This document shows positions 11,557-58,661 of a stretch of DNA of 64,000 bases, piece by piece. How positions within the stretch are numbered: position 1 is the stretch's first letter; each line of letters begins with the position of its first letter. The notes under the pieces were generated by a model that saw only the letters and a list, made by a program, of their open reading frames with translations, had not been told where the DNA came from and made no database searches. This stretch comes from Variovorax sp. IB41 (GTDB taxonomy: Bacteria; Pseudomonadota; Gammaproteobacteria; Burkholderiales; Burkholderiaceae_C). The position numbers and the translations under genes were made by a program. The stretch is from positions 62,001 through 126,000 of the forward strand of contig NZ_JAEFCB010000013.1 in NCBI RefSeq assembly GCF_016405905.1, read 5' to 3'.

Positions 11557-13086
<1,530 letters not shown>

Positions 13087-20986: not shown

Positions 20987-21076
20987 ACAGATTGAACGGA
21001 AGGGCTGAACGCCGGGCTGCGATGCCGGTGCTTTCGGCTGTGGGCAGCCGGCGCCGGGGGCGGAAGAATGCCGCCC

Positions 21077-24000
21077 ATGTCTCTTCTCCTGAATCCGATG
21101 GATCACCCGATCTGTCTCGTCACGCCCGCTCACCTGCCGCCGGGCGGCACCTCCATCGCGCACCTTCCGTTCGTCATGTGGCTGGTCGACACCCTGCGGC
21201 CGCGCACGATCGTCGAACTCGGAACGCGGGATGCTGCCGTGTACTGCGCCTGCTGCGAGGTGGTGGCGAACCGCCGGCTTGCCACGCGTTGCCATGGCCT
21301 CGTCCTGCGCGAGTCCGGTGCCGGCGCGGACGCGCCCATTGCTGCGGCGCTGCGCGCCCATCACGATCCGCTCTACGGCCATTTCTCGCGCGTTGCGGAA
21401 GTCGCGGGTGGCGATCCGTCCGCCGCCTTCGATGACGCAGGCATCGACCTCCTGCACGTCGATCTCGGCCACCCGCTCGTGCGCCTGGACGACGCGCTCG
21501 CGCGGTGGCTGCCCCGCATGAGCCGCTCGGGCATCGTGCTGGTCCATGGCACCGAAGCGCCCGCCCTCGGGGGCGCACGGCACGAGCTCTGGATGGCCTT
21601 GCACCAGCGCCATCACGGCTTTCACTTCGCGCACGGCCACGGGCTGGGCGTGCTGTGCGTCGGCGCCGAAATTCCGCCGCCGCTGCGGGCGATGTGCGGC
21701 CTTGCCGACGAGGCGGCGACCGCGCTGCGCCTGGCCTTTTTCACGCTCGGCGCACGGCTGACCGCGCAGCTGAAGGCCGATGAATTGCGCGTGGCGCTCG
21801 AGCGCTCGGCGAAGGAGCGGCAGGCGCTTGCCGATCGCCTGCACGATGCAGTCGCCGGCCAGGCGCAGCGGGTGTCCGAGGCGGTGGCGCTGCGAAGCCA
21901 GGCCGAGGAGCGCGCCGCCGAGGTGCGCCACCGCGACGCCGCGGTCGATCGGCTCGAAGTGCGGATGCAGGCCCTGTCCGCGGAGCTGGCGCACAAGGAG
22001 AGCCTGGTCGGCCGGCTGAACGCCACGCTGGTGGCGCAGGGCGCGGAGCTCTCCACCATCCGCGGCAGCGTGGGATGGGCACTCGTGCAGCGCTACTGGG
22101 AACTGCGCGCGCGCTGGCTTCCGGCCGGCACGCGGCGCGGCGATGCCTATGAACGGCAGCGCAACCGCCTCCTGCGTTCCGGGCGGCACCTGCTGCAGGC
22201 GGCGGCGATGCAGCCCGGGCTTGCGCCGGGCATCCTGGCCGGCGGGCGGCTTTCCACCCCCCAGGCCGAGCGACCGTGGGAACAACCCCTCACGGGCCAC
22301 AGCCACGCACGCCTCGGGCGGCGGATCCTGATCGTCGCGGAGCTGTCGATGCCGGCATGCAAGCGATACCGCGTCGACCAGAAGGTGGCGATGCTGGAGC
22401 GGCTGGGCTGCGACACCACCGTGCTCGACTGGCGCAGCGATGCGGCCTGCCACAACGCGCTGCAGTTCCACGGGCTCGTCATCTTCTACCGGGTGCCCGC
22501 GTTCGCGGAGGCCAGGCGCCTGGCGCGCGAGGCGCGCCGCCTGGGCATTCCCGGCTTCTACGACGTGGACGACCTGATCTTCGAGCTGGACGCGTACCGC
22601 GGCAGCCTGGAGGCGCTGGGCTTGCCGCGCAAGGAGCGCGAAGCGACGCTGGAGGGCGCGCGCCTGTACCGCGAGATGCTCGGCCTGTGCGAGCACGGCA
22701 TCGCCAGCACGAGCCTGATCGCCCGCCAGATGCGCGCGCACGTGGCCGGCAGCGTCCACACCCTGGAGAACGGGCTGGACGAGACGATCCTGAAGCTCGT
22801 GCAGGAGACGGCCAGGTCGCCGCGCCCGTCCTTTGCCGCGGGCGATACGGTGACGATCGGCTACGGCAGCGGCTCCAGCACGCACGATGCGGACTTCGCC
22901 CTCGTCGCCGGTGCGCTGGCCGCGGTGATGAAGCGCCACGCCCACGTGCGCCTGGTGATCCACGGCATGCTCACGCTGCCCGAATCGCTCGCGGCCCATG
23001 CCGAGCGGATCTTCCGGATTCCGTTTCTCGACGCCGACGACTACCTGCGCGCGGTGGCCGGGTGGGACATCAACATCGCGCCGCTGGAGAACACCACCTT
23101 CAACCAGGCCAAGAGCAACATCAAGTTCATAGAGGCGGCCGCCTTCGGCGTGCCGAGCGTGTGTTCGGTCACCCAGCCGTTCGGCAGCGTCATCGCGCAC
23201 GGCCAGAACGGCATGCTGGCGCGCAATCCGCGCGAGTGGGAAGAGGCGCTGATGCAACTGGTCGCGAGCGAGCCGCTGCGCCGCCGCCTGGGCGAGGAGG
23301 CCCATCGCACGGCCATGGCGCGCTATCACCCGGCCGTGCTGGCCGCGGGATCGATGCATTCCGTCGTCGCGCATCTTCCGGCGCCGCCCGCGCCCACGGG
23401 GCTGAAGGTGCTCGTGGCCAACGTGCTGTTCGCGCCGTTGAGCTTCGGCGGCGCCACCATCGTGGCCGAGCAGCTCGCCCGCGAACTCGCGCACGGCGGT
23501 TGCGACGTGACGGTGTTCACCGGCCTCATGCAGCCGGTGCTGGCGCCCTACCAGGTCGTGCGCTACGAGGCGCTCGGCCTGCCGGTGATCGCCGTGCAGC
23601 TGCCGGTCGGCGGCGAGGCGGCCCTGGAGCACCGCAACCCGGTGATGAAGGAGATCTTCGTGCAGGCGCTTCGCACGCTGCGCCCGGACGTGGTCCACCT
23701 GCATTCGATCCAGTGGCTGAGCGCCTCGCTGGCCGAGGCCTGCGTGGAGGAGGGCGTTCCCTACGTCATCACGCTGCACGATGCGTGGTGGCTGTGCGAG
23801 CGCCAGTTCATGGTGCGCGAGGACCAGCGGTACTGCGGCCAGAAGACCGTCGACCTGCGCACCTGCTCCAGGTGCGTGGCCGACAGCGCCCATACCTACA
23901 AGCGCAGCTTCTACCTGCGGCAGGTGCTGGACGAGGCCGCGCTGCTGCTCACGCCCAGCGAGTTCCAGCGCCAGCTGTACATCGCCAACGGAACGGACCC

Positions 24001-24805
24001 CTCGCGCATCGTCGTCAACAAGAACGGCGTGCTGCTGCCGGCGCGGCCGCGTGCGCCGCGCGAGCCCGGCACGCCCGTGCGCTTCGCCTACCTGGGCGGA
24101 CGCGCAGTGCACAAGGGCTATTTCTGGCTCAAGGAAATCCTCGAATCGATGCCCGAATCGGACTACGTGCTGCGCATCACCGACATCGCGCAGCGCATGG
24201 GCCCGCCGTCCATCCACGCGAGCGAATGGCAGGCCGCGGGACGCATCGAGGTGACGCCGCCCTACGACCAGAGCGGCATGGACGACTTCTTCGACGGCGT
24301 CGACGTGCTGCTCATTCCATCGCAATGGAAAGAAAGCTTCGGCCTGGCCGCACGCGAGGCGCTGGCGCGCGGCCTCTGGGTCATCACGACGGCCTCGGGG
24401 GGCGTGGTCGAGGACATCGTGGACGGGGTGAACGGCGCGATCGTGCCGATCGGCGACGCCGACGCATTCAGGGCCGCCATCCTCGATGCGATGGCCGATC
24501 CCGCGAAGCGGGGCGATGTGCGCCATCCGGCGGCCGACGGCATCCGCGGCTACCGCACGCAGGCGCGCGAGCTCGAAGGCCTGCTCTCGGGCCTCGCGCC
24601 GAGCCGGGACAGTGAACAGCCCGAACAGCGCGCGCACCTGGCGCAACTCGCGCGATCGGCCGTGACCACTTCCAGCCTCGGCATCGGCATCGGCCTCGAC
24701 GCGCGAACGCCGGGCCGTGTTTTCGCGCCTTCGGGCTGTGGTCCGCTGCAGCTGTCTCTTGAAGAATCGTCCGCTTGCGGAACTGGTCTATCCGCCCTTG
24801 TTTAA
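21077..24805 (+). CDS. Multidomain methyltransferase-coiled coil-GT4-GT4 glycosyltransferase
   Basis: 1242 residues in four parts. Residues 1-210 resemble a Methyltransf_24-type fold (IVELGTRDAAVYCA, LLHVDLGHPLVRLDDALARW, SGIVLVHG). Residues about 225-330 are heptad-rich coiled coil. Residues about 415-765 form a GT-B/GT4 domain (IGYGSGSSTHDADF, KFIEAAAFGVPSV). Residues about 775-1190 form a second GT4 domain with PLSFGGATIVAEQLA, HLHSIQWLSASL, YLGGRAVHKGY and the E-x7-E type element ESFGLAAREALA. Such proteins build surface polysaccharide or decorate glycoproteins. The last ~50 residues are low in conservation features and look like readthrough into non-coding DNA. The start at 21077 has GGAAGA at good spacing; 21068 is an alternative. 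Confidence 0.8.
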   Translation: MSLLLNPMDHPICLVTPAHLPPGGTSIAHLPFVMWLVDTLRPRTIVELGTRDAAVYCACCEVVANRRLATRCHGLVLRESGAGADAPIAAALRAHHDPLYGHFSRVAEVAGGDPSAAFDDAGIDLLHVDLGHPLVRLDDALARWLPRMSRSGIVLVHGTEAPALGGARHELWMALHQRHHGFHFAHGHGLGVLCVGAEIPPPLRAMCGLADEAATALRLAFFTLGARLTAQLKADELRVALERSAKERQALADRLHDAVAGQAQRVSEAVALRSQAEERAAEVRHRDAAVDRLEVRMQALSAELAHKESLVGRLNATLVAQGAELSTIRGSVGWALVQRYWELRARWLPAGTRRGDAYERQRNRLLRSGRHLLQAAAMQPGLAPGILAGGRLSTPQAERPWEQPLTGHSHARLGRRILIVAELSMPACKRYRVDQKVAMLERLGCDTTVLDWRSDAACHNALQFHGLVIFYRVPAFAEARRLAREARRLGIPGFYDVDDLIFELDAYRGSLEALGLPRKEREATLEGARLYREMLGLCEHGIASTSLIARQMRAHVAGSVHTLENGLDETILKLVQETARSPRPSFAAGDTVTIGYGSGSSTHDADFALVAGALAAVMKRHAHVRLVIHGMLTLPESLAAHAERIFRIPFLDADDYLRAVAGWDINIAPLENTTFNQAKSNIKFIEAAAFGVPSVCSVTQPFGSVIAHGQNGMLARNPREWEEALMQLVASEPLRRRLGEEAHRTAMARYHPAVLAAGSMHSVVAHLPAPPAPTGLKVLVANVLFAPLSFGGATIVAEQLARELAHGGCDVTVFTGLMQPVLAPYQVVRYEALGLPVIAVQLPVGGEAALEHRNPVMKEIFVQALRTLRPDVVHLHSIQWLSASLAEACVEEGVPYVITLHDAWWLCERQFMVREDQRYCGQKTVDLRTCSRCVADSAHTYKRSFYLRQVLDEAALLLTPSEFQRQLYIANGTDPSRIVVNKNGVLLPARPRAPREPGTPVRFAYLGGRAVHKGYFWLKEILESMPESDYVLRITDIAQRMGPPSIHASEWQAAGRIEVTPPYDQSGMDDFFDGVDVLLIPSQWKESFGLAAREALARGLWVITTASGGVVEDIVDGVNGAIVPIGDADAFRAAILDAMADPAKRGDVRHPAADGIRGYRTQARELEGLLSGLAPSRDSEQPEQRAHLAQLARSAVTTSSLGIGIGLDARTPGRVFAPSGCGPLQLSLEESSACGTGLSALV

Positions 24806-36497: not shown

Positions 36498-39335
36498 ATG
36501 GCGCATACCTTGGCCATACAGAGCGCGGCGATCCCCGTGATCGCGGGCCGGCCTGCGCTGGAGCCGGCGCGCCTTTCGGGCCACGAGGGCCTGAACGCGC
36601 TGTTCGAATACGAACTGCTTCTGAAGACCCCCGATGCCTTGAACCTCGGGGCGAGCGGTGCCGCCGACTTCGACCTCGACAGCTTCATCGGCCGCGAGAT
36701 CACCTGCAACATCCAGCTGGACGGCGCGGGGCAATTCGTTGCGGGCGCTGTCGGTGCATCGGTCGATCACATCGGCGCGGGCGTGCGTCAGATCAATGCG
36801 CTGATCACCGACGCCGCCATGTGGGGCGAAGAGGGCCGCCACGTCCGGTACAGGCTCACGCTGCGCCCGTGGTTGCACCTTGCCACGCTGACCACCGACT
36901 GCAAGATCTTCCAGAACAAGACCGTTGCCGAGGTGCTGGACGAACTGCTGGCCGGCTACGACTTCGCCGTCGACAAACGCCTGATCGAGACCTACCCGCC
37001 ACGCGATTACCAGACGCAGTTCAACGAGAGCGATTTCGAGTTCTTCAGCCGCCTGTGCCAGGAATGGGGCATCAGCTATTTCTTCGCGCACAGCGAAGGC
37101 ATGCACCGCCTCGTGCTCATCGACAACATGGGCGCGTACAACAAGAACGCGAGCGCTGCCTACCAAGAGGTGGAGTACCACGCCCCGGGCTGGAAGCTGG
37201 ATGCCGAGTACGTGCACAGCTTCGTGCCGCACAGCCAGCTCACCAGCGGCAGGTACGCGACGCGCGACTACGACTACACGCGCCCGAGGGCTGACTTGAG
37301 CGTCGGCCGCAGCGATCCGCGTCCGACGGGTCAGGCCGATGGCGAGATTTACCAGTGGCATGCCGGCCAAGCCGGCAGTCACTACGTGCAGCCGCGCGCG
37401 GGCAGGGCCGAGGCCAATGACCCGCAAGGCGAAGGCCGCCAATTGGCGCTGCTGCGCATGCAGGCGCTGCGCACCCACGGTGCGCGCGCCAGGGCCAGTG
37501 GCAACCTGCGCGGCATGGTCCCTGGCTGCAGCTTCGAGCTGCGCAAGCATCCGCGCCAGAAGGCCAATGCCGAGTACCTGATCCTGGGCACGCAACTGCT
37601 GATCGAGGATGTGGCGCTGGACAGCCAGATCAAGGAGGCCGTACCCGACAGAGGCCAGCGCTGGAAGGTCGAAGTGGACTTCACCGCGCATCCGATGGCA
37701 GAGCCACTGCGGCCGGTGCTCCTGCAGGCCAAGCCCTTCACGCACGGGCCGCAATCCGCGCTGGTGGTCGGCCCCGAGGGGCAAAACCTCTGGACCGACG
37801 AACTGGGCCGCATCAAGGTGCAGTTCCCGTGGGACCGCCTCGGACCCAAGAACCAGCACAGCACCTGCTGGATTCGGGTATCGAGCCCGTGGGCGGGCAA
37901 CCAGCTGGGCGGCGTGCACATTCCGCGCATCGGCCAGGAGGTGATCGTCGACTTCATCGGCGGCGATCCGGACCTGCCGGTGTGCACTGGGCGGCTGCAC
38001 AACCAGGGCAACCTGCCGCCGTGGGCGTTGCCAGGGCAATCGGCGCTGAGCGGCTTCAGGAGCCGAGAGCTGACCCCGGAGGGCGGCAACAGCGCGGCCG
38101 GCCGCAGTAACAGCCTCACGATGGACGACACAGCTGGAAAGATTCAAGTCCAGCTCAAGAGCGACCACCAGCACAGCCAGTTGAGCCTGGGACATATCAC
38201 CCGTGTGGAAGGCAATGCAGGCCGCAAGGACGCTCGGGGCGAAGGGTTCGAGTTGCGTACAGACGGGCACGGCGTCCTGCGCGCCAAAGACGGCCTGCTC
38301 GTCACCACCGAGGGGCGTCCCAACGCCCAGGCCCACCTCACCGACATGGGCGAGACCGTTGCACGCCTGACGCAGGGTCGCGATCTGCACGAGTCGCTGG
38401 GCAGTGCTGCGCAGGAAGCCAAGGCGCAGGATGCGGGCGATCAGGATGAAGTCGCCAGGACGCTCAAGAACCAGAACGACGCCATCAAAGGCGCAGGCAA
38501 GCAAAGCAGACCCGAAGCGGGCCAATTCCCTGAACTCGACGAGCCACACCTCGTGCTGGCCTCGCCTGCGGGCATCCAGAGCACCAGTGCGCAAAGCACC
38601 CATGTGCAAGCCGGCGAGCATGTGGCACTCACCAGTGGTGCGCACACCAGTATCTCGGCGGGCCAGAGCTTTTTGGTCAGTGCCAAGCAGGCGCTGCGGT
38701 TCTTTGCGTACAAGGCAGGCATTCGGTTGTTCGCGTATGGCGGTGACATCGACATCAAGGCGCTCAAGGACAGCATCAGCATCATTGCCAGGCTGAACAT
38801 CGTCCAGGTGGCCAACAAGATCACCATCACCGCCAAGGAGGAGCTGGTGCTCAATGGTGGTGGAAGCTACATCTGCCTGAATGCCGCAGGCATTGAGGAA
38901 GCCACGACCGGGAAGCACGTCGAGTACGCCGCGACGCACAGCATGGTCGGGCCGAAGAACGCGCCCACCATCCCCGTGGACGGAAGCTCCAGCCTGAAGG
39001 ACGTCAAGACGACACGCACCTTCGTGCTGCGCTCGCATGCCGAAGATGGGCGCGCCATCGCGATGGAGCCCTACACGCTCTACAAGGATGGCGCAGAGGT
39101 CAAGAAAAGCGTCACGGATGCGCTGGGTCAAGTGTTGATCGAGGACCACCAGGAAGGCACAGGCGCTTACCAGGTCAAGCTGACCAATGGCAACGAGTTC
39201 GAGCTGCCGGTCACAGCGCGGTTGAAGAGCGTCGACCAAAAGCTTGCCGCCCATGGCTACCGCGCTGCCCAGGATGACCTCGGCGACCGCCGGCAGCACT
39301 ACCAGCACCGCCAGGGCGGCCCCGACGAAACCTGA
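36498..39335 (+). CDS. vgrG: Type VI secretion spike protein VgrG with DUF2345 and transthyretin-like tail
   Basis: 945 residues. About 10-370 is the gp27-like base (FNESDFEFFSRLCQEWGISY). About 420-510 is the gp5 OB-fold with DELGRIKVQFPWD, CWIRVSSPWAG and PRIGQEVIVDFIGGDPD. LTMDDTAGKIQVQL follows near 540, then a beta-helical DUF2345 region at about 680-810. Residues about 840-910 (TFVLRSHAEDGRAIAMEPYT, YKDG, DALGQVLIEDH) resemble a transthyretin-like domain, known in an E. coli VgrG to dock a lipase effector. GGAGGG lies upstream of the ATG. The next gene, 20 bp away, encodes a lipase-type effector. Confidence 0.95.
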   Translation: MAHTLAIQSAAIPVIAGRPALEPARLSGHEGLNALFEYELLLKTPDALNLGASGAADFDLDSFIGREITCNIQLDGAGQFVAGAVGASVDHIGAGVRQINALITDAAMWGEEGRHVRYRLTLRPWLHLATLTTDCKIFQNKTVAEVLDELLAGYDFAVDKRLIETYPPRDYQTQFNESDFEFFSRLCQEWGISYFFAHSEGMHRLVLIDNMGAYNKNASAAYQEVEYHAPGWKLDAEYVHSFVPHSQLTSGRYATRDYDYTRPRADLSVGRSDPRPTGQADGEIYQWHAGQAGSHYVQPRAGRAEANDPQGEGRQLALLRMQALRTHGARARASGNLRGMVPGCSFELRKHPRQKANAEYLILGTQLLIEDVALDSQIKEAVPDRGQRWKVEVDFTAHPMAEPLRPVLLQAKPFTHGPQSALVVGPEGQNLWTDELGRIKVQFPWDRLGPKNQHSTCWIRVSSPWAGNQLGGVHIPRIGQEVIVDFIGGDPDLPVCTGRLHNQGNLPPWALPGQSALSGFRSRELTPEGGNSAAGRSNSLTMDDTAGKIQVQLKSDHQHSQLSLGHITRVEGNAGRKDARGEGFELRTDGHGVLRAKDGLLVTTEGRPNAQAHLTDMGETVARLTQGRDLHESLGSAAQEAKAQDAGDQDEVARTLKNQNDAIKGAGKQSRPEAGQFPELDEPHLVLASPAGIQSTSAQSTHVQAGEHVALTSGAHTSISAGQSFLVSAKQALRFFAYKAGIRLFAYGGDIDIKALKDSISIIARLNIVQVANKITITAKEELVLNGGGSYICLNAAGIEEATTGKHVEYAATHSMVGPKNAPTIPVDGSSSLKDVKTTRTFVLRSHAEDGRAIAMEPYTLYKDGAEVKKSVTDALGQVLIEDHQEGTGAYQVKLTNGNEFELPVTARLKSVDQKLAAHGYRAAQDDLGDRRQHYQHRQGGPDET

Positions 39336-39355
39336 GCCGACGAGACATATCCATC

Positions 39356-41611
39356 ATGGCTACGCCACCCAAGACCCAGCAAAAGTCCATCAATCCGCTC
39401 AGCGACACTAGCCGCTGTACCACGGGCAGTCTTCAATGGCATCTTGAGAACAACGAGGATGAGAAGACACCGGTCTTCCACTACAACAACCTCTCGGTAT
39501 ACATCTGCGGCGAAGACGGGTTCAGAGAGATTGCCAAAGATATCCGCGAGGCTGAAGAATCCATCGACATTGTGTGCTGGGGCTTTGATCCCGCGATGGA
39601 GTTGACCCGCAGCGCGGGTCCATGGAAGCGCGGCGATACCTTTGGGGATTTACTGCGGGATGCCGCCGAGGGCAAGCTCAAGAGCAAGAAGAAGGTTCAG
39701 GTGCGCCTACTGTCTTGGCATGACGGCGTAGCTCTTCTTTTGTCTGACAACAACATGCCGGGCTACAAGAAAGGCGCCAGCTACGAACTCAAGGCGGCGT
39801 CGTCCAGAGGCATGGCAGCCGCCTTCGCTCCACATGGACAACTGCCCCCGCTGCCCGAACCGGTTCAAGGACAAGACAAGCGTGAAGTCTTCAACGCCCG
39901 CTGGTTTCGCGACGTGGCGGCCGGGAAGATAGAAAAGCTGTCGCTGCGCACGCGCAGCGGCGTTCATGAAGACGTGTTGGCCGAGCTCAAGGCGGAGGCC
40001 CTCGAACGTGGCGCGACCGTGACGGGCCTCGAGCGGCTTGGGCTCGAGCGACTGGCGACCCATCACCAAAAGACCATCGTGATCGACTATGGGGGCACGC
40101 GTCCCCGCGCCTACGTGATGGGGCTGAACTCCGTCACCGATTATTGGGACTCCCAGGATCACGCCTTCAACGATCCTCGGCGCGGGCAGAACTTCGAGGG
40201 CGGCGCCACGGACCACTCCGCCGGCAAGGACTGGGACGTTCCCTCCGCTGACAAGACCACACTCAAGCCATATCAGGACTTTGCTTGCCGTCTGGAGGGT
40301 GATGCGTTGGTGGCGGTGTACAAGAACTTTGCCGAAGCGTGGAACGCCGCCAAGGCCGAAGGCGATGGCGCTGGCAGCCCGGCTGGCGGCGAGGTCAACC
40401 TGAAAGAGCCGCCCAAGCGGCTCACCCAGAACCTGACTGTCCCATGCAGCCGTGCGCAGATCGTGCGCACGCTGCCCAAGAAAGAAGGCGGCGAGCGCTC
40501 CATCGAGCGGCTGTATTACCAAGCCAGCAGCTTTGCGCGCCATTACCTTTACATCGAGAACCAGTATTTCCAGAACACCGACTGGGCTCGCGCCCTGAAA
40601 ACCCATCGCCAGAACTACGTACAAGGCTGCACGAGCGCCACGCCACCAGTCCCGCTGGCCAGCATCCCTGTGCTGCATGTGCTGGTGGTCACGCCCACGC
40701 CCGAGCGCGACTTGATGGTGCCGCGCACGCACGATACGGTGGTCGAACTCGGTCACGGGGATTCCATGCCTGAACAGGACCGCAAGGTCCGGCAGGAACT
40801 GGACCAGCATGCCGTGTTCGAGCGGGAGATGGCCGAGTACCGAGAAAAAAGCAGCGCTGACTACCAGCGCAAACAGGGTTATCCGACCCCGATGCCGAGA
40901 ATGCCGCCCCCTCTGTCCGACCTTGCGCGCTCCCACCAGGCAGCAAGCAAGGGCAAAGAGAGCAAGGCTGCGCGCGACGAGCTGACCAATGTGCTGCGTA
41001 TGCGCACACTGGTGGCAAGCCTATGGGCCTTCGATGACAAGTGGAGCCAGTCCGATCTGCCCGTCGCCAAACGCATCGACGAAGAAAAGCGGCGTTATGC
41101 GCAGGACTTGCAGGCCTGGAAAAAGCGCCTGGCCACTCAAGCGGAGGACAGGGCTCTCAGCATCAAGGCGGGCGGCTGGTCCGGTTCTGTCGACACCCCC
41201 ATCCCTCCGGCGCAGCCACCCGATCGCAGCAAGGAACTCAAGAACGCGACGGCCCAGCGCTACCGCGAGGTCTACATCCACAGCAAGCTGATGATCATCG
41301 ACGACAGCATGTTCACGCTGGGCAGCGCCAACCTGAATCTGCGCAGCTTCGCGGTGGACAGCGAGATCAATATCGCCAGCGACGACGCGTCGAAGGCCAA
41401 GGACTTGCGGCAGCGGGTGTGGAAACAACACACCAAAGGACAGTTCGATGGGAAGGGGGATGCGACGGATCAGGAAGTAATGTCAGAGACGTTCAGGCGT
41501 TGGGAGGCAGAGGCCAGCGCCAATTTGGATAGGAAAACGGTCGGTGAATCTTTGTCCAGTTTCCTCGTCAAGTTCCTTGATGAGCGCACCAGCAGCATTC
41601 GGGCTGGATGA
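39356..41611 (+). CDS. Type VI phospholipase-D effector (Tle5-like)
   Basis: 751 residues with two HxKxxxxD motifs of the phospholipase D superfamily: HQKTIVIDYGG near residue 236 and HSKLMIIDDSMFTLGSANLN near residue 641. This pairing, the size and the location behind vgrG fit the Tle5 lipase effectors that attack phospholipids such as phosphatidylethanolamine in prey membranes. No signal peptide is seen, as expected for type VI cargo. Residues 480-600 are an inserted charged region. Its stop codon overlaps the putative immunity gene (ATGA). Confidence 0.9.
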   Translation: MATPPKTQQKSINPLSDTSRCTTGSLQWHLENNEDEKTPVFHYNNLSVYICGEDGFREIAKDIREAEESIDIVCWGFDPAMELTRSAGPWKRGDTFGDLLRDAAEGKLKSKKKVQVRLLSWHDGVALLLSDNNMPGYKKGASYELKAASSRGMAAAFAPHGQLPPLPEPVQGQDKREVFNARWFRDVAAGKIEKLSLRTRSGVHEDVLAELKAEALERGATVTGLERLGLERLATHHQKTIVIDYGGTRPRAYVMGLNSVTDYWDSQDHAFNDPRRGQNFEGGATDHSAGKDWDVPSADKTTLKPYQDFACRLEGDALVAVYKNFAEAWNAAKAEGDGAGSPAGGEVNLKEPPKRLTQNLTVPCSRAQIVRTLPKKEGGERSIERLYYQASSFARHYLYIENQYFQNTDWARALKTHRQNYVQGCTSATPPVPLASIPVLHVLVVTPTPERDLMVPRTHDTVVELGHGDSMPEQDRKVRQELDQHAVFEREMAEYREKSSADYQRKQGYPTPMPRMPPPLSDLARSHQAASKGKESKAARDELTNVLRMRTLVASLWAFDDKWSQSDLPVAKRIDEEKRRYAQDLQAWKKRLATQAEDRALSIKAGGWSGSVDTPIPPAQPPDRSKELKNATAQRYREVYIHSKLMIIDDSMFTLGSANLNLRSFAVDSEINIASDDASKAKDLRQRVWKQHTKGQFDGKGDATDQEVMSETFRRWEAEASANLDRKTVGESLSSFLVKFLDERTSSIRAG

Positions 41612-43308
41612 GCATGCCTCAGTCTATCCCTCGCATCAATCCGTTTCGCTGGCCGGCAGCGTTGCTGGCCCTCGCTTTTACTCTTTTGAATTTCACCGCC
41701 TGCAACATGAGTACTCTGCCTCGCAATATGAACCTGAAGGCTTTCGACCCACACCGGGCCGACTTCACATGCAAGCACGAGGCCGATGTCAACCCGCCCA
41801 CCACGGCAGAGGCCGAGGCGCTGTTTCAGCGGGGCATGGTGGTGACCAGCTATGAGCTGCTGCCCGACAAGCGCGGTTACACCAAGGCAGCGGAGCTTTG
41901 GACGCAGGCGGCGACGCTGGGCCATTGGAAAGCTGCCATGAACTTGGCGGGGCTGTATGAGAGTGGCCTGGGCATGCCGCAAGACAGCGAGCAGGCCGTG
42001 CTGATTGTCGAAGGGTTGATGAAGCAAGGCGTGCCCGCAGCCTTCGACAAGATGGGTACTTACCACCAGCGTGGCATAGGCGTGAAGGGTGACACGAGCC
42101 GAGCCTATGCGTTCTGGCAATTGGCGGCGGACATGGGCAGCTCGGCAGCGCAGGCGTATTTGGGGCCCAAATTGAAGGGGACTTATGACAACCCTGAGCA
42201 GGGTTTCTGGGGTAACCGGGAGGTGGCGCTCAAAATGCTCGAATGCGGTTTCGCGCAGGGCAATGGCGATGCGGCTTATGAGCTAGCTCTGACAACTGGG
42301 AACAGAGAGAAAAATACAGAGAAGGAGTATCTGCGTGCGCTCCAGATTTATCACGAAGGCGTGAAACTGGGTTGCAAGAACTGCGCACGTGATCTGTCCG
42401 TCAGCTTTGGTCTTGCCAGGCCCTTAACAGGCAACCTGATCGACAAGACCCGTGATAAACGCTACAGCACGCTATACGAAGCCCTCGAACTCAACCCCGA
42501 CCTTCGCTTCCCCAATCTCGACAAGGTGCTGCCGCTGCCGCCAGCGCCACTCCCCTTCTGGGACGGCAAGCGCGAGACGCTGATCGATGCCGCCAAGGCG
42601 GTCATCGTCAAACAGCCAACGCCGGCCACGCCAGGAGCCAACCGTACCGGCCGAGCCCACATCCCTCAAGGCTTTGTGCTGACCGGCAACATCACACTGC
42701 CGCCTGGCGAGAACGCCTACGACAACCAGGGCAGGCCATGGAGCCTCAAGGCCAAGCAGTACGCCCACTTCACCGGCTACTGGCTCCCTCGGATCGATGT
42801 GGTGAGGGGTGACTGGCAAGTCGACTGGAACGCGGCCCAGGTGCCCTTGCATTTCAAGCGCGGCGAGCCGCTTCCCAATCTGGCGGAACAGATCCCTCCC
42901 GGCTATGGCGCCGTGTCCTGGCACTACGAGGGCTCGCCCGTGCGGCTGGCATCATCGACTCATCCGGACGTGGCACAGGGAATTGCACGCTATTTGCTAG
43001 AGCCGGACGTACCGACCCGTTGCAGCGGCACCGCACCTTGTCCGCAGACCGGCATCTGGTCTGCTCGCCTGAAGAAAGAGCACGAGCACTACGCGGTTTT
43101 CCACGACCGCTGGCAGCAAGCCTACATCGAGCAGGGCCAGCCCTTCCCAGTGCCAAGCACATTGCACGAACCGGGAGGGATCACAGTGGCGGCCAGGGAT
43201 ATCCGTTGGCATTGGTGCGGGGACCCCAACCAGGTGGATGCCTCGGGGCATGTCCATGTGACCTTGAGCAAATTGCTCGGTGCATCGGGGGCTGTCAGGA
43301 ATGGCTAG
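41608..43308 (+). CDS. Sel1-repeat lipoprotein, probable immunity protein for the PLD effector
   Basis: 566 residues. A hydrophobic signal ends in a lipobox-like FTAC with Cys32, giving a predicted periplasmic lipoprotein. Two to three Sel1/TPR-like repeats lie at about 85-200 (YTKAAELWTQAATLGHWKAA, GDTSRAYAFWQLAADMGSSA). The C-terminal half (WSLKAKQYAHFTGYWLP and beyond) looks like the DUF6396-type module seen in Sel1 immunity proteins. Periplasmic Sel1 proteins are the known Tli5 immunity type. Cotranslation with the effector makes the immunity role likely. Confidence 0.82.
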   Translation: MSMPQSIPRINPFRWPAALLALAFTLLNFTACNMSTLPRNMNLKAFDPHRADFTCKHEADVNPPTTAEAEALFQRGMVVTSYELLPDKRGYTKAAELWTQAATLGHWKAAMNLAGLYESGLGMPQDSEQAVLIVEGLMKQGVPAAFDKMGTYHQRGIGVKGDTSRAYAFWQLAADMGSSAAQAYLGPKLKGTYDNPEQGFWGNREVALKMLECGFAQGNGDAAYELALTTGNREKNTEKEYLRALQIYHEGVKLGCKNCARDLSVSFGLARPLTGNLIDKTRDKRYSTLYEALELNPDLRFPNLDKVLPLPPAPLPFWDGKRETLIDAAKAVIVKQPTPATPGANRTGRAHIPQGFVLTGNITLPPGENAYDNQGRPWSLKAKQYAHFTGYWLPRIDVVRGDWQVDWNAAQVPLHFKRGEPLPNLAEQIPPGYGAVSWHYEGSPVRLASSTHPDVAQGIARYLLEPDVPTRCSGTAPCPQTGIWSARLKKEHEHYAVFHDRWQQAYIEQGQPFPVPSTLHEPGGITVAARDIRWHWCGDPNQVDASGHVHVTLSKLLGASGAVRNG

Positions 43309-52804: not shown

Positions 52805-53446
52805 ATGAAGCACTCACGAGATGTCATGTTCGCGAGGCTGGCCGATTTCCGCATCGATGCCGATGCGCTGCGGCGCCATTTCCTGGCGCACGTCTGCACG
52901 CTGCCCTCGATGCCGTACCGCGACAACCGCGTGGACTACATCGGCTGGGCCGTCACGAGCCGCGACGGCACGCTCACCGACGGCATCCGCCGCATCCCCG
53001 GCAAGCAGCCCTTCGTGCCCGGCACCGCGCGGACCGACGCCTGCTCGGGGTATCTCGCCGAGGTGATGGATGCGCTGCGCGAGACGGGCCTGGCGCCCTT
53101 TCGCGCGCGCATCATGCAGCTGGAGAGCGAGGGCGCCGAGATGCCGCTGCACACCGATGCGCTCAAGGAAACCTGGCGCCTGCACATCCCGATCGTCACC
53201 AACCCGAACTGCTTTTTCGAGTGGCAGCGCGCCGACGGCAGCATCGAGAGCGTGCACCTGCCCGCCGACGGCTCGGCCTGGCTGGTGCGGGTGGACGTGA
53301 ACCACCGCGCCGTGAACCGCAGCAACCAGCCCTCCAGCCGCGCGCACCTCTTGATGGGCCTGAACCCGGGGCCTGAATTGCGCATGCTGGCCGAGCCGTG
53401 GCTGCCGGTGTTCCAGAAGACCGACGCCTTCGCGGCGACGGACTGA
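52805..53446 (+). CDS. Aspartyl/asparaginyl beta-hydroxylase-fold dioxygenase
   Basis: 213 residues. Double-stranded beta-helix iron/2-oxoglutarate fold: HxD motif MPLHTDALKETWRLHIPI (His near 116), distal His and Arg in VDVNHRAVNRSNQPSSRAHL. It resembles the Asp_Arg_Hydrox family, which hydroxylates Asp/Asn residues in proteins or lipid acyl chains (as LpxO). It has a very strong ribosome site (GAGGAACGAGGAGAAG). The stop lies 3 bp before the next gene, so it heads the 52.8-58.6 kb cluster. Confidence 0.82.
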   Translation: MKHSRDVMFARLADFRIDADALRRHFLAHVCTLPSMPYRDNRVDYIGWAVTSRDGTLTDGIRRIPGKQPFVPGTARTDACSGYLAEVMDALRETGLAPFRARIMQLESEGAEMPLHTDALKETWRLHIPIVTNPNCFFEWQRADGSIESVHLPADGSAWLVRVDVNHRAVNRSNQPSSRAHLLMGLNPGPELRMLAEPWLPVFQKTDAFAATD

Positions 53447-53449
53447 CCG

Positions 53450-55204
53450 ATGCCCACCGATGACCTGAACGGCTTCGGCGCCTGGACATCCGCGGCGGAC
53501 ATCGACGCCGACCTGCACGCCTTGGGCAAGTCGGACCAGCTGGAGCTGGGCCTCTACCGCCTGCGCAGCGCGCTGAAGGAGGAGCACGCGTTCAGCAAGG
53601 AGATTCTTCCGAGGTACCAGGACGCGCTGATCCTGTCGGGCAACGTCAATGCGGCGCTGGAGTTGCGGAGCAGCGAGCGGTGGAAAGCGGCGTTCCAGAA
53701 GGACCAGCAGGGGATGGACGTCGCGTTCACGCAGCTGATCGCGGGGCAGATCGCGCAACTGGCGCGGCGGCTGGCGCAGGTGATCGATGCGTCTCCGTTT
53801 GAATTCGCCACCTATCTGGCGGGGTTGAAAAGGCATCACGCGGCGACCTATCAGAGCATTGCCGGTATTGCGCGGCCTTTGATCGAGGAGAAATCTTCCG
53901 AGAATCCTCAGGATTTGATTGCATTGAAATTGGCGATCGAAGGATTTGAAGGCTATGGGGAAGATGTTCAAAAAGAAAACCTGATCGATTTCTTTGAAAG
54001 CCAGAACCACGAGACCCTTTGCAAATTCTTCCAGACCGCGCTTCCGGCCAATGGAAAGATATTCAGGGAATTCGTCACCGATATCCTGCAGGACGAAAAA
54101 GGAATCCGGCGCCTGAAAGATACGGCCATCTGCCGCGTCCTGATTCTGGGGTGCGCTTTGCTGGACGAGGCGGTCTACGATCGGGCGCTTCAGCAGGTGC
54201 GCGAATCTGTCGCGGCTGAAAAAGGTGGCGCGGCGCTGTCCAGCGCGAGAATTGCCCGTGCATTCGGTACCGCAGTCCAAAGTCCGCCCCGCGAATTGAA
54301 CAGGCAGCAACTCGATATTGCGATTTGTATTTCGGGCCAGATGCGAGGTTATGCGGAGGCTTTCGAGACCTGGAAGCACCTGCACCTCGACGGCCACCGC
54401 GTGAAATATTTCGTCCACACCTGGGAAGACACCGGCTGGCGATTTCCCGATCCGCTGTCTGGAAATGGCGTCGATCGCATATTCAAGCATGCAGCATTTG
54501 CGCAGGCCTATAAGCAGGCGGGATTTCAATACGGCCTCGAAGCGATGAAAAAGGCGTATCCGAATTTCTTTTCGATGCTGGCGGTATCTTCAACGGTCAA
54601 TGAATCGGATATCAAAGCGGTCTATGGAAATGATACGGCAATTGTCATTGAAAGCCATCAAAGGCCCGAATTCGAGAACGACACGAACAACCAGCGCAAG
54701 ATGTTCTACAAGATCCAGGAAGCGCACCGCCTGATGATGGACGACGGCGGAGCCTTCGATCTCGTGCTCAGAATAAGGCCCGACCGCACATTCCGGGCAA
54801 GCGACAAAAAACCGGACTGGATAAAAATGGCCGAAGAATGCCGCAAACAGCGCGTCATTTATTTCAATCATTTGATGGTCACCAAGACGCTTTATGCGGG
54901 CGATCAATTCGCGATCGGATCTCCGGAAGCCATCGGCTGCTACGCCAACACGCTGAAGCTCCAGACCCAGGCGATCGACGAAAAATGGTTCGGATTTCCG
55001 AGGCGCCTGCGCTCGCATTGTTCGCTCGCGCATTCGCTGTTGTTCCAGGGTGTACGGCGCCGCCCCCTCGAAAACATCGTGCCCGTCGAGGCGATGCCCG
55101 CTGCGTCCTATGGAAAGAATGAATTGCGGAAATTGCTCGCCATCGATCTACCCTCGGGACCATCGAGCGAAATGGACAAATTGCTCTGGAATTCCCTGAG
55201 TTGA
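53450..55204 (+). CDS. Large protein with C-terminal glycosyltransferase-like domain
   Basis: 584 residues, not assigned to a named family. Residues 1-280 are helical and charged with no recognised domain. From residue 290 it has LDIAICISGQMRGYAEAFET, VKYFVHTWEDTGWR and DLVLRIRPDRTFRASDK, the pattern of capsular or surface-glycan glycosyltransferase-like proteins (Rossmann beta strands with a DxD-like RPD segment). Codon usage is more A+T-rich than in flanking genes from about 53800 on, with many AAA, GAA and TTT codons, a sign of horizontal acquisition. No export signal, so it is likely cytoplasmic. Confidence 0.6.
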   Translation: MPTDDLNGFGAWTSAADIDADLHALGKSDQLELGLYRLRSALKEEHAFSKEILPRYQDALILSGNVNAALELRSSERWKAAFQKDQQGMDVAFTQLIAGQIAQLARRLAQVIDASPFEFATYLAGLKRHHAATYQSIAGIARPLIEEKSSENPQDLIALKLAIEGFEGYGEDVQKENLIDFFESQNHETLCKFFQTALPANGKIFREFVTDILQDEKGIRRLKDTAICRVLILGCALLDEAVYDRALQQVRESVAAEKGGAALSSARIARAFGTAVQSPPRELNRQQLDIAICISGQMRGYAEAFETWKHLHLDGHRVKYFVHTWEDTGWRFPDPLSGNGVDRIFKHAAFAQAYKQAGFQYGLEAMKKAYPNFFSMLAVSSTVNESDIKAVYGNDTAIVIESHQRPEFENDTNNQRKMFYKIQEAHRLMMDDGGAFDLVLRIRPDRTFRASDKKPDWIKMAEECRKQRVIYFNHLMVTKTLYAGDQFAIGSPEAIGCYANTLKLQTQAIDEKWFGFPRRLRSHCSLAHSLLFQGVRRRPLENIVPVEAMPAASYGKNELRKLLAIDLPSGPSSEMDKLLWNSLS

Positions 55205-55223
55205 AGAATTCACCGAAATAACC

Positions 55224-56336
55224 ATGCGAATATCCGCCGCAGGCGCCCCGATGCCGGCCATCCGATTGCCCTGGAAGCAGATTCTCGCGGGCGGTGCGAT
55301 TGCGTACGCCGCGTGCGTGCCTTCGGTGTCCGCCCGGGAATTGCAGGAGGCGCCGGGATGCCGCAATTCCAGGAATCAGCACCGGCTCGAACTGGAACAG
55401 AAATTCGAATTCAATGGCATTCGCGTGTTCTATACGCAATCGGGCCCGCACGCGCTGTATAGCAATGCAGATATCAATCGCAATGGCGTGCCCGATATCG
55501 TAGAAGACGCGGCGCTCCATCTGGACACCGTCCGGCAGATCTTCAACCGCAACGGCTTCCGCGATCCGCTCGCCAGCCCGAGGTTCCGGCAGGCCGAATC
55601 CATCGATATCGATTTCCTGAACTTCGATGTCTACAGCCCCGAGATCACGGACAAGCGCGGCCTGTCGTTTTCGGCGGTGATTCGCTATCCAGGCAGCAGT
55701 ATTCGCGCCGATAAATGCTCGATTTCAATGGCCATCAATTCCGCATTGAAAGGCAATCACGAGCGCGTCAAGGATTTTCTCATTCCGCATGAGTTGTTCC
55801 ATTTATACCAATACGGCTACACCATGTTCCGCGCCAGCTGGTTCCTGGAAGGCATGGCCAAATGGGCGGAATGGGTCACGCTGGCGGAAAACGATCGCAA
55901 TCCGAAATTGTGGAACACGCCATTGCCTTCGTCATTGCGGGAATTGAACGAACAGGTTTTTCTCAATCCCAATCCCTATGACGTCAGGCATTTCTGGAAC
56001 CGGTTGGCGGAACTCGTCAAGAAAAAGGAATTTCCCATGATCATTCCCCCGGAATTGCGGGACCGGAAATTCGCCGATGGCACGCCGGTGATCAAGGACA
56101 ACATCTGGCGCGGCCGCGCCCTGATGCTCAAGATCCTGGAAGGGCTGGACGCAGAAGACGACGTGGTCGGCCAGGAAAGGAACCTGCCGCCCTACGCCTG
56201 GGCCAACGAAGACCAGCGCGCCGCGGTCCACAACCCCCGGCTCATGAAAATCGTGCAGCGTGCGTTGGCGTCTTATTCGATTTCGGGCGCGGAGGTCAAA
56301 CAATTCCTCGCCATCGACCTGGGGCCAGCGCAGTGA
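55224..56336 (+). CDS. Exported zinc-metallopeptidase-like protein (MXAN_6640-like)
   Basis: 370 residues. An N-terminal hydrophobic signal (ILAGGAIAYAACVPSVSA) indicates export. DINRNGVPDIVEDAALHLD near residue 75 looks like a Ca-binding, EF-hand-like loop. The zinc motif is PHELFHLYQYGY (His189-Glu190-x2-His193) followed by FLEGMAKWAEW with Glu209, the gluzincin pattern HExxH...E. Together these resemble the MXAN_6640-type predicted metalloproteases. Peptidase activity and target are unproven. A 4-bp overlap links it to the next gene; the 5' half is A+T-richer than average. Confidence 0.65.
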   Translation: MRISAAGAPMPAIRLPWKQILAGGAIAYAACVPSVSARELQEAPGCRNSRNQHRLELEQKFEFNGIRVFYTQSGPHALYSNADINRNGVPDIVEDAALHLDTVRQIFNRNGFRDPLASPRFRQAESIDIDFLNFDVYSPEITDKRGLSFSAVIRYPGSSIRADKCSISMAINSALKGNHERVKDFLIPHELFHLYQYGYTMFRASWFLEGMAKWAEWVTLAENDRNPKLWNTPLPSSLRELNEQVFLNPNPYDVRHFWNRLAELVKKKEFPMIIPPELRDRKFADGTPVIKDNIWRGRALMLKILEGLDAEDDVVGQERNLPPYAWANEDQRAAVHNPRLMKIVQRALASYSISGAEVKQFLAIDLGPAQ

Positions 56337-57901
56337 TCGTCATCACTTCCGCCGCCTACGTCGATTCGGAATTGCAATCGGAATTCGGCCGCCTGCCGCC
56401 CGCCTTTCTGCCCGTGGGCAACCGGCGCCTGTTCCTGCGGCAGTTCGCGGTGCTGCAGGCGCGCTTTCCCGGCGAGGCCATCTATCTTTCGCTGCCCGAG
56501 AGCTACGCCATCCCGCACCGCGACGTGCGCGCGCTCGAGGCGCAGGCGGTGCAGGTGCTGCGGGTGCCCGACGGGCTCACGCTGGCCGATTCGGTGCTGT
56601 TCTCGATCAACACCATCGGCAACTACGGCGAGGGGCTGCGCATCCTGCACGGCGACACGCTGATCGAGGACCTTCCGCCCGCCTGGGACTGCCTCTGCGT
56701 GGCCGAGTCCGCGGACGATTACGACTGGCACGTCGACCAGGGGCCCGACGCCGGCACGCGCGTGTGGTGCGGCTACTTCGCCTTCCACTCGGTGGGGCGG
56801 CTGGCCAAGTGCCTGGTGGCGGCGCGCGGCGCGTTCGAGAAGGCCGTCTCGGCCTACGACGAGGCCTGCTACCTGGAGCGGGTGCACACCGACAAGTGGT
56901 CGGACTTCGGACACGTCAACACCTTCTACCGATCGCGCGCGCAGATCACCACGCAGCGCGCGTTCAACGACCTGGCGATCGGCGACCGCCGGGTGCGCAA
57001 GACGGGCAGGCCTGCCGAGAAGATCAAGGCCGAGGCGCAGTGGTTCGGCGCGCTGCCGCCGCGCCTTCGCGTGTACGCGCCGCAGCTGCTGGACCACGGC
57101 CCGGTCGCGCCCGACGGCTACGGCTACGAGCTGGAGTACCTGTGCATGGCGCCGCTCAACGAGCTGTACGTGCACGGCTGCAACTCGACGGCATTCTGGT
57201 CGCGCGTGTTCAAGCACCTGGCCGACTGGCTGGCCGCCTGCCAGTCGGCCGTGCCGTTGAGCGACAGCCAGCGGCAGGTCGTGGCCGAAGACAGCCGCGG
57301 CATGCTCGCGGAAAAGACCCGGGCGCGCATGAACGCCTATGCCGACGGTTGCGGCCTGAGCGTGTCGGCGCCCACGCGGCTGAACGGCCGCACGCTGCCG
57401 TCGCTTTCGGACATCCTGGACCGCTGCATCGAGGCCGCGGCGCGCGTGCCGCTGGTGCCGGGCGTGATGCACGGCGACCTGTGCCTGAGCAACATCCTGT
57501 TCGACACGCGCTCGGACTGCATCAAGGTGATCGATCCGCGCGGCCTCAATTTCCGCGGCGAGGCGCGCCTGGTGGGCGACCTGCGCTACGACCTCGCGAA
57601 GCTCGCGCATTCGGTGCTGGGCCTGTACGACTACATCGTGGCCGACGCCTTCGACATCGACGAGGGCACGGGGCTGGACTTCCAGCTGCGCATCCACGCC
57701 GACGAAGACGCGGCCGCGATCCAGAAGCTGTTCGCGGGCCTGCCGCTTCTGAACGGCATGACGGCGCGGCATGTGGCGCCCATCACCGTCATGCTGTTCC
57801 TGTCGATGCTGCCGCTGCACCAGGACACGCCGCGCCGCCAGCGCGCGATGCTCGCCAACGCACTGCGCCTTTACGAGCTCATGGCGCACATGGAGCACTG
57901 A
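56333..57901 (+). CDS. Fused nucleotidyltransferase-like / APH-type kinase protein
   Basis: 522 residues. The N-terminal ~230 residues resemble a sugar-nucleotidyltransferase fold (LPPAFLPVGNRRLFLRQF corresponds to the nucleotide-binding KxLLPVG...L segment). The basic signature Lys is missing from this segment, so this half may be degenerate. The C-terminal ~260 residues are an aminoglycoside/choline-kinase-type fold: VMHGDLCLSNILF near 380 and VIDPRG near 400 hold the catalytic Asp and metal Asp. Kinase plus nucleotidyltransferase is the logic of phosphocholine or phosphoramidate decoration pathways. Confidence 0.68.
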   Translation: MIVITSAAYVDSELQSEFGRLPPAFLPVGNRRLFLRQFAVLQARFPGEAIYLSLPESYAIPHRDVRALEAQAVQVLRVPDGLTLADSVLFSINTIGNYGEGLRILHGDTLIEDLPPAWDCLCVAESADDYDWHVDQGPDAGTRVWCGYFAFHSVGRLAKCLVAARGAFEKAVSAYDEACYLERVHTDKWSDFGHVNTFYRSRAQITTQRAFNDLAIGDRRVRKTGRPAEKIKAEAQWFGALPPRLRVYAPQLLDHGPVAPDGYGYELEYLCMAPLNELYVHGCNSTAFWSRVFKHLADWLAACQSAVPLSDSQRQVVAEDSRGMLAEKTRARMNAYADGCGLSVSAPTRLNGRTLPSLSDILDRCIEAAARVPLVPGVMHGDLCLSNILFDTRSDCIKVIDPRGLNFRGEARLVGDLRYDLAKLAHSVLGLYDYIVADAFDIDEGTGLDFQLRIHADEDAAAIQKLFAGLPLLNGMTARHVAPITVMLFLSMLPLHQDTPRRQRAMLANALRLYELMAHMEH

Positions 57902-57909
57902 GAAAAAAC

Positions 57910-58626
57910 ATGTTCGTCATACCGATGGTCGGCAAGAGCCGCCGTTTCACCGAGGCCGGCTACGCGCTGCCCAAGTACCGCCTGCCGCTGCATGGGCAGA
58001 CGGTGTTCTTCCATGTCGTGAAGTCGTTCGAGCGCTACTTCGCGAACGATCTTTTTCTCTTCGTGGTGCGGCGCGACCACGACGTCGCGGGGTTCATCAA
58101 GCAGGAGCTGAAGACCCTGGGCGTGAAGGAATTCCGCATCGTCGAGATCGAGGGCGACACGCTCGGGCAGGCCGACACGGTGCACCAGGGGCTGCGGCAG
58201 ATGCCGCCGGGCGATGCGCTGTACGTCTTCAACATCGACACCATCCGCCCGGGCTTCAGCAAGTCGCCCCGGGCGGCCGATGCGCTGGGGTACCTGGAGG
58301 TGTTCGAGGGCGAGGGCGATCACTGGTCGTTCGTGGAACCGGGCCCGGACCATGCGGTGCTTCGGACGACGGAGAAGGAGCGCATCTCCAACCTCTGCAG
58401 CGACGGCCTCTATCACTTCGCGGATGCGCGGGTCTTCGACGAGGCCTTCGCGCACCAGCGCGCGAGGCAGGCGATGACGCGCGGCGAGTACTACATCGCG
58501 CCTTGCTACAACGCGCTGATCGAGAAGGGCGGGCGCGTGGCCTACGAGCTCGTCGACCGCAGCGAGATCGTGTTCTGCGGAACGCCGCAGGAGTACGAAG
58601 AGGCGGCCGCGAAACGGTGGGACTGA
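57910..58626 (+). CDS. Nucleotidyltransferase-family protein (capsule/surface modification type)
   Basis: 238 residues. FVIPMVGKSRRFTEAGYALP with the following KYRLPLHG is the nucleotide-binding pyrophosphorylase signature (GxGxRF...PK). VFNIDTIRP near residue 110 supplies the metal-binding Asp. EYYIAPCYNALIEKGGRVAY matches the C-terminal part of GT2/NTP-transferase proteins found beside surface phosphate-modification genes. It starts 8 bp after the fused kinase gene and probably activates the phosphorylated compound as a CDP-type donor (inference). Confidence 0.75.
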   Translation: MFVIPMVGKSRRFTEAGYALPKYRLPLHGQTVFFHVVKSFERYFANDLFLFVVRRDHDVAGFIKQELKTLGVKEFRIVEIEGDTLGQADTVHQGLRQMPPGDALYVFNIDTIRPGFSKSPRAADALGYLEVFEGEGDHWSFVEPGPDHAVLRTTEKERISNLCSDGLYHFADARVFDEAFAHQRARQAMTRGEYYIAPCYNALIEKGGRVAYELVDRSEIVFCGTPQEYEEAAAKRWD

Positions 58627-58661
58627 AACCCGCGTGAAGCGGCTGCGGCCTGGCTGCGGCC

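Follow-up and report, generated by a model that had tools for sequence, protein, structure and literature searches.

The window analysed here, a stretch of 64,000 nucleotides from Variovorax sp. IB41, contains a cluster of five genes (A to E) that is a reduced, lineage-specific variant of the H-D-E cassette, a gene set of capsule and O-antigen loci for whose chemistry we found no description in the literature. On balance we favour, by a small degree of belief over doubt, its reading as a reduced Variovorax operon made up of two modules, B-(H)-D-E for a KfoE-type activation and transfer of a sugar, and A-C-F, which would act on the acceptor or on its export. H and F are genes of the related operons. 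A sequence-only reading of the same DNA had proposed a cluster for the phospho-modification of a surface glycan, an interpretation that is partly supported: the surface glycan is, and the phospho-modification now appears unlikely.

A reduced operon and its missing genes

The five same-strand genes, separated by at most 19 bp or overlapping, that the sequence-only reading had described were confirmed as ORFs A-E at 52805-58626, with 3 bp between A and B, 19 bp between B and C, a 4-bp overlap of C and D, and 8 bp between D and E.

A, 52805..53446, + strand: 213 aa; Asp/Asn beta-hydroxylase-fold protein, putative 2-oxoglutarate/Fe(II) oxygenase of the A-C-F module (above the PF05118 cut-off)
B, 53450..55204, + strand: 584 aa; protein without a named family, its C-terminal half a candidate ketosyl/fructosyl-transferase (relatives in capsule loci)
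C, 55224..56336, + strand: 370 aa (361 aa from the ATG at 55251); HExxH metallopeptidase-like protein with an N-terminal signal-like stretch
H-site junction, 56333..56336, + strand: place of H (~370 bp) in relatives; no H in the window, where C and D overlap instead
D, 56333..57901, + strand: GTG start; nucleotidyltransferase-fold N-domain plus APH-type kinase, of the E. coli K4 KfoE family
E, 57910..58626, + strand: 238 aa; nucleotidyltransferase, candidate NDP-ketose synthase
F-site junction, 58627..58661, no strand: place of F (566-568 aa) in relatives; absent in the window

The cluster is surrounded by LysR, adenosine deaminase-like, Bug-type, PhaZ-like and GST-like genes (assigned by reading of the sequence and in part by Pfam), the PhaZ-like gene being convergent and directly next to E in the comparison of the junctions. 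The sequence-only reading had advised a search for linked polymerase or flippase genes; neither these nor an ABC exporter were found among the neighbours, and the region does not make up a complete capsule or O-antigen locus. The A+T-richness noted for the middle genes holds in the window for B and C (G+C of 0.69 in A, 0.56 in B, 0.57 in C, 0.69 in D and 0.66 in E) but does not extend to the family as a whole: both genes have a G+C of 0.71 in the genome G014. Elsewhere in the window, a VgrG (T6SS spike) gene in a lower-G+C stretch (36498-43308) is followed by genes for proteins with a PLD domain and with Sel1 repeats, respectively, an arrangement that resembles a T6SS effector/immunity block. 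A 1245-aa protein encoded at 21068-24805 joins a methyltransferase-like domain to two group 1 glycosyltransferase regions.

Besides the window's own genome, D was present in 5 of the 60 other genomes of the genus that were sampled, and was further found on a V. paradoxus megaplasmid and in V. beijingensis. The order A-B-C-D-E was identical in every Variovorax genome found with D, so that the conserved neighbourhood on which the sequence-only reading depended does exist. This constancy, together with dN/dS values of 0.05-0.33 for every gene between the window and its relatives, indicates that the cluster is more than a chance assembly. The operon was seen at two sites. At one, which is that of the window, it is flanked by the LysR and the PhaZ-like gene, and at the other it adjoins amidase/ABC-transporter-like genes.

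The full order in the relatives is A-B-C-H-D-E-F, so the five-gene extent given by the sequence-only reading holds for A-E as present in the window and is short of H and F, which are missing from the cluster of the window genome. H is an ORF of 120-123 aa between C and D, found in G014, G041, V. beijingensis and the V. paradoxus plasmid (loci including L022, L015, L008 and L019), and it scores 181 bits against TIGR01689 (EcbF/BcbF capsule biosynthesis phosphatase; cut-off 162). Neither H nor any TIGR01689 match was found in the whole of the window genome, and H is also absent from G058, G060 and G033. In trees of A, B and C the genomes without H fall apart from those with it (support in D and E is weak), which is consistent with a single loss of H. 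F follows E in all complete relatives (L014, L015, L016, L019, L021 and L022). H was lost by the lineage of the window, and the window has additionally lost F. This protein is related to the N-terminal domain of poly-glutamate-synthase-like proteins, a domain without a Pfam family, and in the window genome it is represented only by two paralogues, each the N-terminal part of a larger poly-glutamate-synthase-like protein. One of these (L038 4186-8958) has 1590 aa and combines the F domain with PGA_cap and Mur ligase domains, the other (L039 5660-8743) has 1027 aa and combines it with a Mur ligase.

The two modules were also found apart. A-C-F without B-H-D-E is present in Variovorax G017 and G038, Variovorax G018 has A-C only, and no homologues of A, C or F were found in the H-D-E capsule loci. 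The operon can therefore be written as A-[B]-C-[H-D-E]-F, with the sugar cassette inserted in A-C-F. In other Burkholderiales, relatives of C lie near relatives of F and Mur-ligase or ATP-grasp genes; C is present in a single copy in the window genome. A decayed copy of the operon was seen in G011 (L070 10713-13120), where A and C are kept, B and F are reduced to short fragments and H-D-E is gone.

The proteins and their relatives in surface-polysaccharide loci

A scores 24.6 bits against Pfam PF05118 (Asp/Asn hydroxylase; gathering cut-off 22.6) and belongs to this family, as had been read from the sequence. The description of C as an exported metallopeptidase-like protein agrees with the HELFH motif read in its sequence and with its relationship to NCBIfam MXAN_6640_HExxH (E 1e-15), to which it does not belong at 58 bits for a cut-off of 140; its signal peptide is putative, a reading of a signal-like N-terminal stretch. 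B matched no Pfam or NCBIfam family, its AlphaFold model is poor (pLDDT 43), and no homology could be detected with WavE, the other transferase that is common in H-D-E loci. However, the C-terminal half of B is 33% identical (E 2.6e-58) to a relative on a capsule plasmid of Phaeobacter, and it has further relatives in an ORF that lies between kfoC and H in E. coli K4, in K52-like loci and in capsule loci on plasmids. As these relatives adjoin H-D-E in the K4, K52-like, plasmid and Phaeobacter loci, B is the best transferase candidate, and its earlier description as glycosyltransferase-like is plausible, if unproven.

Both the fused nucleotidyltransferase-kinase and the second nucleotidyltransferase were borne out. 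D contains an APH kinase domain (PF01636, E 1.3e-6 in Pfam) and is ~35-41% identical to diverse relatives. Its kinase residues H380-G381-D382, N387 and D401 (motifs HGDxxxxN and IDPRG) are invariant in eight diverse members, only one of which is the D of the window. The N-terminal region of D can be aligned to E at the profile level (hhalign, E 8e-4, probability 25%) and is without the canonical nucleotide-binding loop that E has; among the fold-search matches listed for a poor AlphaFold model of D (pLDDT 50) most are nucleotidyltransferases, which lends this likeness weak support. E is an IspD/NTP_transf_3-like protein (Pfam/NCBIfam) with residues G8, R12, K22 and D110 invariant in its relatives, and its closest solved chain is 4evw from V. 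cholerae (E 1e-64). The PDB entries 1xpj and 4evw raise the idea that the fructose of V. cholerae LPS may depend on genes of the cassette, a link on which the wav literature of V. cholerae gave no help.

An uninterrupted H-D-E was present in E. coli, Citrobacter, Caballeronia and Phaeobacter, where it belongs to capsule or O-antigen loci, and was further seen in Shewanella and two Burkholderiales. D and E are direct neighbours, and H nearly always accompanies them, in Caballeronia, E. coli, Phaeobacter and Citrobacter plasmid capsule loci; relatives of the pair were also detected in one further member of the class in the class scan. The location of these relatives, together with H, in capsule and O-antigen loci gives good support to the surface-glycan role that had been proposed for D and E. 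Within E. coli, the cassette is widespread and mobile among the loci for group 2/3 capsules and for O antigens of the O20/O78/O92 type; the chromosomal loci were O20/O137, O78, O92-type and group 2 capsules including K52-like and K4. The host of the K52-like locus is an O15:H18 ST69 strain, and in CC69 the most frequent K locus is K52 (PMC13171598). The scans showed the cassette as rare and scattered, with one other in 369 genomes (class scan) and three others in 300 genomes (order scan).

H passed the TIGR01689 cut-off in nine of the ten loci tested. Among the 300 Burkholderiales genomes TIGR01689 was found in two, both of which are among the four carriers of D, a coincidence that by our own arithmetic has a chance of about 1 in 7,500 (6/44,850). 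G647 has D-E without a TIGR01689 match, and Legionella has a diverged set with a kinase that lacks the N-domain. The window itself has an NTase-fold plus APH kinase protein with HGDxxxxN and IDPRG (D) and an adjacent E; we have classified it as a reduced variant rather than a full member of the H-D-E cassette because H is not adjacent and is absent genome-wide.

KfoE and a possible route to an activated ketose

The locus L054 of E. coli WP4-W18-ESBL-09 encodes the chondroitin synthase of E. coli K4 (match to 2z86) and is hence a K4-type capsule locus. The K4 polysaccharide is a chondroitin with beta-fructofuranose on GlcA (PMC3593321). The gene kfoE has been assigned to this fructosylation and named a fructosyltransferase (PMC10609508, PMC3673904, PMC7925653), and its deletion abolishes the fructosylation of the capsule (PMC7429809, PMC7925653). 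The primers of the deletion (PMC7429809) match L054 without mismatch, with arms at 9324-9374, the last bases of H, and at 11719-11768, which is E from base 5, so the gene removed is D: kfoE and D are the same gene. The deletion also extends into E, of which four bases with the start codon are lost (L054 11715-11718), and the phenotype may thus come from D, E or both. K4 is the only H-D-E locus for which a deletion phenotype was found in the literature. In WP4-W18-ESBL-09 kfoE/D (L054 9374-11706) is interrupted by IS1, and a non-fructosylated K4 capsule is therefore predicted for this strain. Capsules that contain fructose were already known in the 1980s, and the K52 and K11 polysaccharides also carry fructose.

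These data suggest that H-D-E is an unstudied bacterial route for the activation of a ketose such as fructose. The activation of heptose follows a logic of a kinase for the anomeric carbon, a HAD phosphatase at the far end of the sugar and a nucleotidyltransferase. The anomeric carbon of a ketose is C2, and the path that we propose would accordingly lead from a ketose phosphate through a ketose 2,n-bisphosphate to an NDP-ketose. The APH-type kinase of D would place a phosphate on the anomeric carbon of the ketose phosphate, for example converting Fru-6-P to Fru-2,6-P2, H would remove the distal phosphate (in the window, where H is lost, it may be replaced by a housekeeping HAD enzyme), E would couple the anomeric phosphate to a nucleotide to give the NDP-ketose, and B or another (WavE-like) transferase would add the ketofuranose to an envelope glycan. 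The hydroxylase A, the putatively exported HExxH protein C and the lost F probably act on the acceptor or its export. The connection of F with poly-glutamate-synthase-like proteins suggests, purely as a guess, a peptide-linked or poly-amino-acid acceptor.

The more general claim, that H-D-E is an unrecognised route to nucleotide-activated ketofuranoses via a ketose bisphosphate, that KfoE is misnamed as a fructosyltransferase and that in Variovorax the ketose would go to an unusual, perhaps peptide-linked, envelope polymer, we put forward only tentatively and consider rather doubtful. Several observations count against the preferred reading itself. O78 carries H-D-E, though its published repeat consists of Man and GlcNAc, without a ketose. 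The window is without H, F and a nearby polymerase or exporter, its B has no detectable homology to WavE, and no biochemistry of H, D or E was found in the literature. Searches on BcbF and on the capsule phosphatase/nucleotidyltransferase found nothing on function, and those on ketofuranose donors, the mechanism of KfoE and the activated donor for fructose-bearing capsules found no prior description. Those on CDP- or GDP-fructose yielded only the CDP-6-D-fructose of C. jejuni HS:5, which has a different linkage and is made directly from Fru-6-P. KfoE, a kinase/nucleotidyltransferase fusion, is accompanied by another nucleotidyltransferase and in nearly all cases by a dedicated phosphatase. This association offers a concrete pathway that can be tested, for example in the O20, O78, O92-type and K4 loci, and puts in question the role given to kfoE, a gene on which chondroitin engineering draws. 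In Variovorax the operon would show the cassette at work, or in decay, away from a classical capsule locus.

Alternative explanations and known systems

KfoE/D could itself be a fructosyl (or other glycosyl) transferase through the GT-A/nucleotidyltransferase-like fold of its N-domain, with the kinase regulating or priming the reaction. Its name in the literature, given on knock-out evidence, agrees with this, and an N-domain without the canonical nucleotide-binding loop of E could have another activity. However, D travels with the nucleotidyltransferase E and nearly always with the phosphatase H, a set that fits donor synthesis, and many H-D-E loci contain separate transferase candidates that are B-like or WavE. 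Furthermore, as a kinase with intact motifs and invariant catalytic residues D is better suited to donor synthesis than to transfer, and we consider transfer by D itself improbable. About equally unlikely is that the substrate activated by the cassette is a non-ketose sugar, a polyol or an alcohol and that a phospho-substituent is added, the Lic- or phosphoramidate-like proposal of the sequence-only reading. A kinase with a nucleotidyltransferase is also the logic of Lic, and CDP-glycerol glycerophosphotransferase genes are found in some H-D-E loci. Against this, neither LicD nor glutamine-kinase or other MeOPN-pathway families were found in the cluster, a phosphatase for a distal phosphate is foreign to the Lic pathway, and the sole locus with a phenotype, and the closest one, is K4 with its fructosylated chondroitin-type capsule.

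The preferred reading as a reduced operon for ketose activation also has to be weighed against decay of the pathway in the window strain, where the loss of H and F may have left a non-functional remnant. The absence of both genes from the locus, of TIGR01689 from the whole genome and of F other than as paralogues points in this direction, as does the more decayed remnant in G011. However, purifying selection still acts on A-E where H is lacking: the dN/dS values of these genes are 0.05-0.29 for the window against its nearest relative, which has no H either, and all the ORFs are intact. In addition, a GmhB-like HAD phosphatase is encoded elsewhere in the genomes of this lineage, which together with this selection makes a substitution of H possible, and G647 likewise has D-E and no TIGR01689 match. 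A dead remnant thus has a low probability in our view.

Among the closest known systems is the E. coli K4 kfoE region: D is of the KfoE family, K4 has H-D-E and a B-like ORF adjoins H there. K4 differs in having kps export, the chondroitin polymerase and H, none of them near the window cluster, which adds A and C. The O20/O137, O78, O92-type and K52-like loci of E. coli also have H, D and E adjacent, but these lie among wzx/wzy, wzm/wzt or kps genes and without homologues of A, C and F. With ADP/GDP-heptose activation (GmhA-HldA/HddA-GmhB-HldE/HddC) the likeness is in logic only, the match of H to GmhB being marginal (E 0.08); the kinase of the cassette is, in contrast, of APH type and fused to an NTase-fold domain, and no GmhA-like isomerase was noticed. 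The Lic phosphocholine and Campylobacter O-methyl phosphoramidate pathways share with the cluster a kinase and a nucleotidyltransferase feeding a surface glycan, but the cluster has no LicD, glutamine kinase or amidotransferase, and its relatives have the TIGR01689 phosphatase. LicA/LicC families were not matched in the cluster either (Pfam, NCBIfam), nor were amidohydrolase or CDP-phosphoramidate kinase families, and the PDB matches of E up to E=1 include neither LicC nor the CTP:phosphoglutamine enzyme. Finally, the fructose branch of C. jejuni HS:1, compared by description only, is also a beta-fructofuranose on a capsule and is attributed to a single 849-aa protein, HS1.08 (PMC7901785), indicating that routes for fructose other than H-D-E exist.
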